DNA from: Yponomeuta sedellus
Taxonomy: Eukaryota > Arthropoda > Insecta > Lepidoptera > Yponomeutidae
NCBI GenBank assembly: GCA_934045075.1
Contig: OW203725.1
Span: forward strand, 25,521,714 to 25,585,713
DNA: 64,000 nucleotides
Reading direction: 5' to 3'
Shown: piece by piece, positions 5,402-63,654 of the stretch
Position numbering within the stretch: position 1 is the first letter of the stretch
How the letters are laid out: each line of letters starts with the position of its first letter
The notes under the pieces: model-generated
The model's input: the letters and a program-made list of their open reading frames with translations, nothing else
Databases searched by the model: none
What the model was told of the DNA's origin: nothing
Program-made: the position numbers and the translations under genes

Positions 5402-5486
5402 GCCGCACTCACCATATGTAGTGCGTGTAGGCCGCACTCACCATATGTAGTGCGTGTAGGCCGCACTCACCATATGTAGTGCGTGT
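5402..5486 (-). repeat. 29-bp tandem repeat over the KLHL20 stop codon (about 2.9 copies)
   Basis: Units at 5402-5430, 5431-5459 and 5460-5486 are identical. Each contains the last codons (HYIW), the TGA stop and 8 following bases, so the extra copies lie in the 3' UTR. Confidence 0.95.
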
Positions 5487-5583
5487 CCTGGTGCGGCGCG
5501 CGCATGACGCCGACGCCGCCGCCCAGCCGCCGGTAGTTCATGGCGCCGCACAGCCGCCACTGGTTCGACTCCGGGTCGAACAC
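5467..5583 (-). CDS. KLHL20: KLHL20 terminal coding exon (Kelch repeat 6 and stop)
   Basis: 38 codons plus TGA: VFDPESNQWRLCGAMNYRRL, GGGVGVMRAP, then a tail ending THYIW. The final Ile-Trp matches the end of vertebrate KLHL20. The stop codon and last codons lie inside a 29-bp tandem repeat (5402-5486). Confidence 0.92.
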   Translation of the reverse strand: MFDPESNQWRLCGAMNYRRLGGGVGVMRAPHQDTHYIW

Positions 5584-8500
5584 CTGCGCCAAATAAACAC
5601 ATTTAGACAACATTTAACAAGACATACTGTTATTAGTTGCTATCAAACGTCTTATGGGGCCTCTAGACGGGCTATATTTTCACGAAAATGTGTAGCTGCA
5701 AATGATACATCATAAGATAAGATAGATAAGAATATTTTTTATTGTACACCAGAGCACATTTTGACTTTCTTTAATAATTTTTACTTACTTTAAAATATTT
5801 GCAACAATGACTTGGCACCCGGCGTGCGTGCATGCTACGACTTATGAACGTTGATGAAGCGAAGGTGATCTGTCAGGATCGTGGCAAGTGCCATTCCCTG
5901 GTCTGGGATACAGGCTGGAGGTTATGCATGTATGTATGTATGACTTGGTAACAGTTGAAAATTACCTCTCCGCGCTAATTAGAAACAGAAGTGCAGTGAA
6001 GTAGGCTCGTCATTAACGTGACCAGTGTAAATTGCTTGTTTGTAAACAGTGTGGTTAATCTTACGGTGTCTAGGTTCAAACAACAATGGTTAGTAATGTA
6101 TAATAAGATAATCATATGAAGACATATTACACTGCCCCTCTCTTTCTCGCGCATTAGCAATCCGCTAAAAGTTAAAAGGGCATTTTGTATACCTATATTT
6201 GTTTAAACGCCGTTCGAAATATGTGTAAAGCACATTTTGTGCCAAAAGGGCTACTATAACATTACACATTATTTATAGAACAAATATGCCTGGAAGTAAA
6301 TGCAATGCATGATTGCTAGGTTTTAGAATAATGTGTAAACTCTGTTAATAAAGTATCAAAAGAACTTGAAAAGAATAAGATTGAAGTTTATAGTTAATTT
6401 TTCTTGAAAATTAGTTGGATTTTGAAATGGACAACTGGTTTTACTTGTAACGGCCAATACGTTACACTTACTGTGTTACGAGTATTTTGAATAAAGTAGT
6501 CAGTTATGGTGTACTTAGAGACAGAACATGTTAGCACACATTACACCACATGTTTTGATCTGAGATGTGCGAGTAGTCCCTTTGGCTCTCACCTCTATGG
6601 ACTTGAGGTAGGCGGTGCCGTCGAAGCCGCCGACGGCGTACAGCTGCCCGTTGACGACGGCCAGCCCCACGCCGCTGCGGCGTGACGTCATGGCCACCAC
6701 GGGCGACCACGCGTCCGCCGCCGGGTCGTACCTGCGCCGGGATTAGTCACCGTCAATTTACTAAAATCTTAAAAACCTATTTTGAGTCTATAAACTCCAC
6801 CCATGCCGGGCCTCGAACCCGCGACCTCTGGCTAACCGTGCCAGAGAACCGGTTAGCCAGAGGTCGCGGCTTCGAGTCCCGGAATGGGTGGAAATTTTAG
6901 CCTCTAAATAGGTCTTTTAAAATTGTGCTTCGCACGGGTTAGTGCATTAAAAAAAGAATATAATTATTAAACTCTGTGACATTCGTAGAGAGCGTAAAGT
7001 GCGAATTTAGTTTAAAATTATCACCATCAACCCATTATGTCCACACAGAAGGGCACGAGTCCCTTTCCTAAGGAAGGTATAGACCTTACTTCATACATAA
7101 CATGTAATTGGTATTTTAAAACATAAAAATATTACTTTTTTAGATCATATTTTACATTGATACTCAACATACCGAGACTTAAATCCCGTGGTGGGGATAT
7201 ATTATAAGGGTTAGTATACTATATAATAAACAGAATGTAAATTGTTTATGTTCTAATACATTTTTCATTTCTGAATTCACATGTTAGGAACAACATTTTG
7301 TTTTCCATCTTGGTGATATCCTCGCCTGGTTACCATAAAACAGGGTATCCTAATTTGGAACTAGGGTAAATGAATTTGTTTCGTGGAAGTTATCTTCACT
7401 AGCTGACCCTGCAAATGCTGTTTTGTTACCCACGATCAATTTTCAGACCTACGAGTATATACAAAAAATTGTGAAGCCGTCTCAGAGCAGTTCGATAGCA
7501 AACACTTAGGGTCTGTTTCACAATCTGCAGATAGAGTTCCGGATCCGCAACCAGGGCTGCGGTTTGTTCTTAATTTGAAGCCATAAAAAGAACACACGCA
7601 ATATAGGATGCTTATTTAAATTTAGAACAAACGGCAGCCCTGGTTGCGGATAGCTTATCTGAAACCTTATTTGAACATTGTGAAACAGAGGCTTGGAAAC
7701 ATTTATTCAAATATAAAATTAAGTCGGGTTATACTATATCTTTAACTCAAGAACGGCTGGACCGATTATATTGTCGATTCTGGGGCGGCACAGGGTCGAT
7801 CGGGCCGGCTAGTCGGGAAGAGCGATTAGGAACCGACCGCTCGGCGGAGGAGAGCTCGGTGCAGTCGTCGCGGCCGCCGACCGCGTAGATCTGGTTGTCG
7901 TAGACGGCGCAGCCCAGGTGCTTGCGGCGCGTGGACATGGCCGCCACCGGCGTCCACTTGTTGGCGCGCGGCTCGTAGCGCTCGGCCGAGCTCAGCGGCG
8001 CCTGCCCGTCGGACCCGCCCACCGCGTACAGCGCGCCGCCGAGCACCGCCACCGCCACGCCCAGCCGCCGCGACGTCATGGCCGCCACCTGCGGCACCGC
8101 CCTCATTGTAATAGCGCTACACGAGAAAGCTGATTCCAGCACCGCCACCGCCACGCCCAGCCGCCGCGACGTCATGGCCGCCACCTGCGGCACCGCCCTC
8201 ATTGTAATAGCGCTACACGAGAAAGCTGTTTCCAGCACCGCCACCGCCACGCCCAGCCGCCGCGACGTCAAGTCCGCCACCTGCGGCACCGCCCTCATTG
8301 TAATAGCGCTACACGAGAAAGCTGTTTCCAGCACCGCCACCGCCACCCCCAGCCGCCGCGACGTCATGGCCGCCACCTGCGGCACCGCCCTCATTGTAAT
8401 AGCGCTACACGAGAAAGCTGTTTCCAGCACCGCCACCGCCACGCCCAGCCGCCGCGACGTCAAGGCCGCCACCTGCGGCACCGCCCCTCATTGTAATAGC

Positions 8501-10532
8501 GCTACACGAGAAAGCTGTTTCCAGCACCGCCACCGCCACGCCCAGCCGCCGCGACGTCAAGGCCGCCACCTGCGGCACCGCCCCTCATTGTAATAGCGCT
8601 ACACGAGAAAGCTGTTTCCAGCACCGCCACCGCCACGCCCAGCCGCCGCGACGTCAAGGCCGCCACCTGCGGCACCGCCCCTCATTGTAATAGCGCTACA
8701 CGAGAAAGCTGTTTCCAGCACCGCCACCGCCACGCCCAGCCGCCGCGACGTCAAGGCCGCCACCTGCGGCACCGCCCCTCATTGTAATAGCGCTACGATG
8801 CTACGCGCTACGACGTCATGGCCACCGTCTACCGCCGACGATTCATTGTAATAGCGCTACACGTGAAAGCCGTTTCGTTTAGGTTTCAGTACACAATGGC
8901 CTATCTTGGCGAGTGGGAATAGCAAAAAAGGTAATTTCTGAATTTGGAGGTCGTGGATTCGAATCTCAGTATGCACCAATAACTCACTCCTACTCATAGT
9001 TGTACATAATTGAGACATTAATGGCTCAGTCATGAATAAGTAGCACTACTACTCGCTAACGGTAAAGGAAAACATCGTAAAATGCCTCTGCGCTTGCATG
9101 TACAATGGTTCAACTATGAAGTTAAGTGCAGTAATTTCGAAAGGTCTAACTATGGTATTTGCTTGCCCATTACAGCACATTGCCATTATATACGGGGGCA
9201 ACGGTATGGTGGCGGACTATTGTCAATCGTGGAGCGCAATTACAATGTCACTTGTTGATCTTTCTAGTACACTTCCAGGGAATCGCAACGCAGCGCAACC
9301 TTTTTTTTTTTCGTTTATCAATTAAAATATATACATATTTCACTTTGTTAAGACGCAATCATCATAGCCTGCGCAATGAAGGCTTTTCAGCTCGGCGTTT
9401 TTGACAGCTCTCAGTTGGGTTCCCCAAAAGCCACTAGATGGCAGCCTGCCTAACTCTGTCTGAGAACGGAGGTTATTGACACAGAGTATATAGGAGTGAC
9501 AGAATCATAGAGTAGAAAGAAGACCAGCAACCAATGACACCTTTCTGCATACTATCAGCTATGCAGACAGGTTTCTTCGGTTTCTGGTCAGTAAGCCTCC
9601 TTCATTCAGATAGGGCTAGCTAGCGCCATCTATTAATTAACATAACATAACATTTACATACAGGCACATACATTGTTTTTGGCCCCACACTAGGATACCC
9701 TGTGACGTGGGAACCAGAAACAACGACATCACAAACATGTAAACATCCAAGACCTGGACTTTTTTTTTGTGTCCAGCCGGGATTCGAACCCGGGACCTCT
9801 CGCATGGTAGGCAGACGCGCTACCGCTACGCCACAGAGGTCGTCATCGGTCGTCTACGTCAATTAAAAGTGGTACAGGTTTATTTTTTGAAGTCCCTCTG
9901 AAAAGCGCTGAATAATTCGATATGTAGTAGGCGTGTAGCCTCATTATTACAATAACGTGCACTTTATGTTTAGCCAGCACTTAACATAGAATATAAGCAA
10001 ATGCACAGTGTTATTTAAGTTCACTCCATACAATATACGAGGACACACTACAACTGAGACGTGTTTTCTATTCCATCTCCTGACACCACCGAGCGCTCAC
10101 CTTGGTCCAGCGGTTCTCCTTGGGGTCGTACCGCTCGACGTGGTTGAGGCACTGCACGCCGTCCTGGCCGCCCACGGCGTACAGCGCGCCCTCCAGCACG
10201 GCCACGCCCACCGACGTGCGGCACGACGACGTCGGCGCCACCGCGCCGCACCACTGCACCACACACACACACACACACCGATAGTATCGCATTGTATAGA
10301 ATATACAAATATACAAAATATTTATTCATACAACCAAAATTATTCTTACATACACTTTTGCTGGGATTCCCTTGTAAGTATAAAATACCTGTGCCAGGGA
10401 AACCCGCTCTTCCACAACTTATAAAGGTTGAACAACTAAAACTAACTATCGAATCTTATTTTTATAAAACTGGTTAAGTTATAGAAATGTGGTGTGTCTG
10501 TGTGTGAGAGTGTACGTGTGTTTGTTTGTGTG

Positions 10533-62948: not shown

Positions 62949-63472
62949 TCGGCGTCGGCGGAGGCGCGCCTATTGCTGCACTACTACACGCGGGTCACTC
63001 ATCACAATAGTCTTCTTAAAAACCTATCTAGAGGCTGGTAGTTAGCCAGTGTCGGCTAGGTCTACCTCACGATGGGCTGGTCGAGAGAGCGGAATGGGAG
63101 GTGACGTGAATGGACTTACTTGGTGATGGTGGATGATGGCTCGCTTTAGCTGTTGGGCGGATGATGAGCGGTGATGGATGAGCTGATGCGTCCAGCGCAC
63201 GGAGAACACTCCTGCACTGTTCACTTATAGTCTAATATTGTTCCTTGAGCTGATAAAGTTTCTTGGTCACCAAATGTCTATCACTTCACGAGAATTCGAG
63301 CACTTATCACGCGCGTATGTCACAGTGCCAATGTGTATGCAGATGGATGGATAAATTAGTAGCGAGCGAGCGGCACGAGCGACGGCACCGGAACGACAGA
63401 ATAATGAATGAATGACCACAGATTCATGATTACGTCGCGCGATCAATTCTCGCGCGAACAGAGGCTGAAAAC

Positions 63473-63545
63473 TCCGTCCACGCCGGTACCGAACCCGCGA
63501 CCGCGGGCTAACCGTACCGGCGGACTGAGCTAATGGACGAGTGGT
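63473..63545 (-). mobile_element. tRNA-derived SINE head, second copy
   Basis: Same as 62876-62948 with few changes. It immediately precedes the third copy of the COG4 exon 11 end. Confidence 0.7.
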
Positions 63546-63654
63546 GTAGAGGTGCGCGCCTGCTGCTGCACCACTACAAGCGGGTGACACACCGCACCCT
63601 CAGAACGAAAGAGGCCTGAGTAAAAAAATAGTGAAATTGAGTTACAATCATAGA

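Follow-up and report, generated by a model that had tools for sequence, protein, structure and literature searches.

Tandem repeat arrays at exon edges of KLHL20, COG4 and other genes, mostly at splice donors, in Yponomeuta sedellus

Repeat arrays on the exon edges of KLHL20 and COG4

We analysed a stretch of 64,000 nucleotides from the lepidopteran Yponomeuta sedellus, called the window in the following, which corresponds to C4:25521714-25585713 in a genome of 657.5 Mb and lies 0.4 Mb from a chromosome end. The window contains the genes KLHL20 and COG4. Tandem repeat arrays sit on exon edges of both genes, most often on 5′ splice sites (donors), and comparable arrays recur at donors of many other genes in the same genome.

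KLHL20 lies on the minus strand (5467..18837) and has ten coding exons, from K1 (18837-18668), whose start is the first ATG seen, to K10 (5583-5467). These exons join as a single open frame that ends at TGA, and they match the Kelch-like protein 20 in the PDB (residues 277-577, E=4e-164). COG4 lies on the plus strand (39234..62824). Translation and splice signals delimit exons C1 to C5 (39234-39431, 42502-42737, 43528-43648, 47388-47579 and 48993-49193) and C6 to C10 (49686-49813, 54553-54666, 55441-55672, 59681-59939 and 62658-62824), which match PF08318 (E=2.5e-41); the gene continues beyond the window, and earlier exons are possible.

Tandem Repeats Finder returned 116 rows for the window, which yield eight arrays at a score of at least 150, a cut-off that was picked after the table had been inspected. 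Six of these eight arrays cover exon edges of the two genes: four a 5′ splice site, one a 3′ splice site (acceptor) and one a stop codon. They are the six tandem expansions (units of 29, 96/97, 88, 115, 62 and 51 bp) that the initial annotation had placed at exon edges, and the edge types it gave are found at exons K6, K5, C4 and C6 (5′ splice sites), K8 (3′ splice site) and K10 (stop codon). When unit-length segments were placed randomly in the window relative to its 46 edges, the probability of at least six out of eight falling on edges was 2.6e-7; when whole arrays were placed, it was 0.0015. The earlier statement that chance placement is unlikely is thus upheld by both randomizations.

The four donor arrays are distributed equally between the two genes. 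On the minus strand, an 88-bp array (2.0 copies, 12512..12685) covers the 5′ splice site at 12634 of KLHL20 exon K6 (12634-12857), and a 115-bp array (5.9 copies, 13402..14084), whose unit combines 102 bp of exon with 13 bp of intron, covers the 5′ splice site at 13979 of exon K5 (13979-14171). On the plus strand, seven identical copies (7.0) of a 62-bp unit with 48 bp of exon and 14 bp of intron (47532..47966) cover the 5′ splice site at 47579 of COG4 exon C4, while a 51-bp array with 78 copies (x78.1, 49785..53766) and a unit of about 29 bp of exon and 22 bp of intron covers that of exon C6 at 49813. The acceptor array has a unit of 96/97 bp (7.8 copies, 8042..8796, minus strand) and includes the 3′ splice site at 8088 of exon K8 (7838-8088); four 96-bp copies adjoin the exon and are followed by four 97-bp copies and by a remnant (8797-8892) with 69% identity to the unit. 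Lastly, a 29-bp array (3.0 copies, 5401..5486, minus strand) lies at the end of exon K10 and includes the stop codon TGA (5467-5469). The context of this codon is ATATGG|TGAGTG, so that it also looks like a donor (G|GTGAGT).

The remaining two arrays lie off any exon edge. A 21-bp array (6.7 copies, 4328..4470) is intergenic, and a 117-bp array (1.8 copies, 85% matches, 48170..48382) lies wholly inside the intron between COG4 exons C4 and C5. Only the former had been noted as an expanded minisatellite away from exons; the intronic array had been overlooked. The dispersed copies of a COG4 exon end that had been reported were recovered as well: the end of exon C10 and the following intron recur at 62956..63033, with a second, shorter copy at about 63554..63591 (both on the plus strand). 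Together with the exon end, these two decayed copies look like an older case of the same kind.

Two further observations concern the COG4 introns. The spacer between the dispersed C10 copies is present twice in near-identical form (62865-62946 and 63460-63541) and by eye has a tRNA-derived look. A putative reverse-transcriptase element, recognised by translation, occupies 57037-59660 on the minus strand and reaches to within tens of bases of the acceptor of exon C9, whose upstream sequence is unusual.

Recurrence at donors across the genome

For a genome-wide test, we looked for triplets of 8-base words, with the three copies separated by gaps of 20-50. The donor word AGGTGAGT gave 134 triplet matches in at least ten clusters, and the donor word AGGTAAGT gave 30 in seven clusters. 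Far fewer were found with the scrambles, that is, eight triplet matches in two clusters for GGATTGGA and none genome-wide for GTTGAGGA at these gaps; the acceptor word TTTGCAGG gave one. Single-word counts cover AGGTGAGT, GGATTGGA and the mirror word TGAGTGGA (25,980) only, and here AGGTGAGT occurs 12,299 times compared to 12,625 times for its equal-composition scramble GGATTGGA. The numbers of clusters of these two words (at least ten and two) differ significantly (Fisher p=0.017). The mirror TGAGTGGA (22 triplet matches, nine clusters) was dropped as a control because it overlaps the donor GTGAGTGG and five of its nine clusters are exon ends; scrambles were used instead. AGGTTAGG, the mirror of GGATTGGA, was swamped by an apparent telomere repeat.

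We then related the clusters to exons. Among the matches listed, out of 167 in total, the donor-word triplets form 17 clusters on contigs C2-C24, and in ten of these the repeated donor marks the end of a coding exon. The exons include one of spectrin (L081, PF00435, 4.9e-11) and one with a TSP1 domain (L087, PF00090, 1.6e-10), one weakly like Nup54 (L089) and a GBF1-like one (L080), the latter two below the cut-off, and a GC-rich exon end without a name (L079). By the look of the sequence, we take four others to be Ig-like (L051), SPRY-like (L061), GPCR-like (L084) and ABCC-like (L090), all four being without a Pfam match, and L078 is presumably MAP2K-like. The exon ends among the nine clusters of TGAGTGGA are L091, L092, L093, L096 and L098, and two more are likely (L095 and L097). 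Furthermore, among about 100 matches of AGGTGAGT listed for the first 5.6 Mb of contig C1, there are three same-strand groups spaced by less than 150 bp, and all three lie on exon edges: two on donors (L100, L101) and one on an acceptor (L102). About 100 matches of GGATTGGA listed for the first 6.1 Mb contain no such same-strand group except one overlapping pair.

L097 (C29:9.43 Mb) and L099 (C31:9.98 Mb) have nearly the same unit (TGAGTGGACACACAAC...GCCAGATA) on different contigs; thus, at least one of them has moved, or the regions were duplicated. With the exception of this pair, the units are local exon sequence that by eye differs between genes, and the insertion of a shared mobile element (introner) was rejected as an explanation.

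Arrays were also found at loci that had been chosen independently of repeats. A Pfam kinase search of the genome gave 137 matches, and we inspected 44 loci (L004-L047): four similar to COG4 exon C4 (L004-L007), the best kinase matches (L008-L037) and kinase exons (L038-L047), several of which were picked for their nearness to chromosome ends, so that the sampling was partly steered there. These loci contain six array regions at a score of at least 150 and a period of at least 20. Four of the six carry an exon and its donor within the unit (L006, L040 and twice L041); in the third region of L041, donors are present and the exon lies outside the fetched piece, and the region in L045 is on no visible exon. 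L040 and L041 are within about 0.45 Mb of an end of contig C22. At positions 1-179 of L041, upstream in the same kinase gene and with its exon beyond the fetched piece, there is a 32-bp array whose copies have diverged but mostly contain G|GTACGT.

Among the arrays that were not selected by a donor word, eight are at donors, one at an acceptor and one at a stop codon. The initial annotation had considered chance placement at exon edges unlikely. The genome-wide searches for selected words, with their controls, agree with this, but the edges are not equal. One explanation for the inequality is that donors are true mutation hotspots, where an R-loop, a paused polymerase, bound U1 or a conflict between replication and transcription causes re-replication or slippage, whatever selection does. 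The ratio of eight donors to one acceptor and the single match of the acceptor word would be expected under such targeting. The same applies to the eight triplets of an equally frequent word of equal composition compared to 134, even though most sites of that word presumably lie in DNA where a duplication is harmless; furthermore, a donor array with a G+C content of 32% (L098) exists. On the other hand, these data are assembly sequence and not mutation rates, and other conserved edges also seed arrays, as seen for the K8 acceptor, the acceptor duplication on contig C1 (L102) and the stop-codon array. We consider donor hotspots unlikely on balance, while giving them more weight than any other rival.

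Base composition might account for the arrays instead. According to this explanation, GC-rich DNA breeds minisatellites and is mostly exon, and duplications within exons are purged so that those at the edges remain. The exons in the window have G+C contents of 0.70 and 0.77 compared to 0.405 for the rest, and the off-edge intronic array (48170-48382) itself reaches 59%. Of 42 kinase rows, nine lie within 0.5 Mb of a chromosome end and 33 farther in; an exon G+C above 0.59 is found in seven of the former and one of the latter, in line with a study on lepidopteran chromosomes that describes a rise of GC and repeat density toward the ends (PMC11009112). However, window DNA of at least 65% G+C, arrays excluded, amounts to 1,620 bp far from exons and 347 bp within 100 bp of exons, yet most arrays are at exons. 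In addition, the same-composition scramble yields few triplets. GC thus does not seem to be the whole story, since the L098 array is GC-poor and the GC-rich window DNA far from exons is array-poor. A sharp step from GC-rich exon to AT-rich intron, which had been put forward, alongside co-transcriptional structures, as a possible cause, is not needed either, given L098 and the exon ends of L087 and L090 (53-57% G+C). Composition and tolerance as the only causes therefore seem rather improbable to us. As to chromosome position, 15 exon-end arrays (ten from the donor-word clusters and five from those of TGAGTGGA) lie 0.5-7.7 Mb from a chromosome end (Kolmogorov–Smirnov test against uniform, p=0.00045; p=0.005 for 17 arrays when two likely exon-end ones are added), and this lean toward the ends is a property of arrays in general, as far as the sample shows.

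The repeat unit and the decay of its copies

The unit was measured in 11 donor-type arrays (K10 included), with its extent determined as exact runs that were then widened by eye across mismatches. Its exon part is 8-102 bp and its intron part 6-36 bp long, and in all 11 arrays the latter contains at least the first six intron bases. Since the duplication spans the exon end and the intron start, each copy contains a complete donor. Unit periods show no preference for the reading frame (five of 18 divisible by three), and in C6 and C4 a read-through beyond the first donor runs into stops. We thus rejected the possibility that the arrays are coding tandem repeats, with the four proximal 96-bp copies of K8 as an exception, because they form an open frame that continues that of the exon (7838-8487 of the window, minus strand); if an upstream K8 acceptor were used, the kelch region would gain repeats of 32 residues. 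A different in-frame repeat, of 21 bp or seven codons, occurs at 3384-3471 in the gene upstream, inside the last of its coding exons to be located; this is expected if survival within exons is limited to in-frame repeats.

The exon copy is kept intact, as the initial annotation had proposed for the copy closest to the exon. At L040, a kinase DFG exon, the exon copy reads AAG (Lys) and three of four intronic copies read GAG; at K8, the exon copy encodes Met and five of the seven other copies encode Leu (codons on the gene strand). Identity to the exon copy decreases with distance, with a negative rho in all 11 scored arrays; the scoring left out C4 (no differences), K6 (two copies) and L093 (partial sequence).

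Repeated donors could also be functional, serving as U1 sinks against early polyadenylation of a long intron or as alternative donors that add a repeated peptide. Every copy of the 51-bp array retains its donor, and the open K8 copies would fit the second role. Donor positions are less mismatched than the remainder in three of four arrays, but a clear difference is confined to L078, and in L041a it is strongly in the opposite direction. With this mixed result we put conserved decoy donors low, and the lack of a frame preference and the stops in C6 and C4 argue against added peptides; a function of the extra donors is very unlikely.

Finally, reads might have looped across short repeats during assembly, and three arrays (29, 62 and 115 bp) indeed have nearly no differences between copies. 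The 51-bp array contains four variants (39 A, 37 B, one C and one D) in a clear order: one C is followed by A copies among which B is scattered, and a long stretch of B precedes D as the last copy. This ordered map, the 96- and 97-bp blocks in K8 and the strongly diverged tails elsewhere are difficult to reconcile with an artefact, and an assembler has no reason to choose donors. We regard an assembly artefact as the least probable of the explanations, with hardly any weight.

A conserved exon copy as a possible template

Such arrays are present at the donors of many genes. Where they were examined, their exon copy is intact, and the other copies mostly become more divergent outward. Our tentative explanation, to which we would give close to an even chance, is that these are minisatellites anchored at the ends of coding exons, where the conserved exon copy serves as a permanent template beside neutral DNA and reseeds the array. 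A short tandem duplication would begin 8-102 bp before the end of an exon and reach 6-36 bp into the intron. The spliceosome would use the first, exon-proximal donor, so that the further copies would leave with the intron and the mRNA would be unchanged. Selection on the protein and on the donor would preserve this first copy, which is bordered by freely evolving intron. Unequal exchange or replication slippage would insert new copies beside it and thereby displace older ones into the intron, where they would decay; the way in which divergence increases outward suggests that the array is reseeded rather than lost. Duplication of an acceptor, by contrast, would create a competing AG upstream of the genuine one and may be tolerated less often, which could explain the excess of donors. 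Tolerance does not seem to be the whole story, because deep-intron DNA should tolerate duplications at least as well, but few arrays are formed by a word that is just as frequent. Between a permanent template and mutational targeting of donors, we thus favour the conserved seed, with donor targeting as the main rival.

Several observations weigh against this explanation. Tolerance alone predicts many deep-intron arrays, so the template carries much of the argument, and it is this part that we infer. Four of the 17 donor-word clusters among the matches listed are without an exon (L048, L082, L086, L088), two are not assignable (L083, L085) and one is ambiguous (L050), and two of the nine TGAGTGGA clusters are without an exon end (L094, L099). 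All exons were placed by eye from the genomic DNA of one assembly, those in the window using translation and splice signals. Concerning the words, the mirror TGAATGGA gave 70 triplet matches, above the 30 of its donor word AGGTAAGT, and the mirrors GGACGTTT and AGGAGTTG gave 17 and five; furthermore, the words themselves favour donors, and the word-based ratio of 5′ to 3′ sites is biased. Exon-end arrays are no more distal than others (15 compared to six non-exon arrays, Mann-Whitney p=0.52). The outward decay reaches nominal p<0.05 in four of the 11 scored arrays (C6, L078, L061 and K8), and these p-values are optimistic because copies are not independent; it is near zero in L096 (rho -0.05) and weak in L051 (-0.15), and L093, outside the scored set, shows no fall in identity over the part covered. 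Decayed end copies are also common in ordinary minisatellites.

When comparing the arrays to known systems, we find partial similarities. They are minisatellites in the usual sense, with units of about 10-100 bp that are arranged head to tail and share high identity. As in variable number tandem repeats, for which a subtelomeric excess is reported in humans (PMC7608644), units are tens of bp long, variants form blocks, end copies are diverged and many arrays lie toward chromosome ends; such subtelomeric enrichment is seen for the 15 exon-end arrays. They differ in that here, across numerous unrelated genes, the unit spans a coding exon-intron junction and the first copy of the array is the functional exon end. 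Intron gain by tandem genomic duplication likewise involves a duplication that crosses the exon-intron boundary and copies splice signals, as found here; however, existing introns become longer here with no new intron seen, donors outnumber acceptors and copy numbers reach 78. The dual-specific splice sites of polyubiquitin (PMC10809524) resemble the arrays in having tandem coding units with splice signals at the junctions, but those sites reportedly act both ways within coding repeats, whereas the extra copies here look intronic. In the lepidopteran chromosome patterning noted above (PMC11009112), GC and repeats rise toward the ends, as do arrays and exon GC here; its relevant passages treat repeats as a whole and do not mention exon edges. 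Our literature search, mostly outside subscription journals, gave no recognised description of tandem arrays at splice donors.

A further-reaching conclusion would be that the 5′ splice site, which is a signal at the RNA level, also marks DNA for tandem duplication, so that transcription or splicing at donors would drive the copying of exon ends as a steady genome-wide source of repeats and intron length, beyond mere tolerance. We think this doubtful. The birthplace and persistence of minisatellites are poorly explained, and recurrence at one selectively pinned site provides many independent replicates. In arrays anchored at donors, the starting copy is fixed, growth has an inherent direction, and mutation bias can be tested directly against tolerance. 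Such arrays also lengthen introns and supply decoy donors, which programs for gene finding and splice prediction will encounter.

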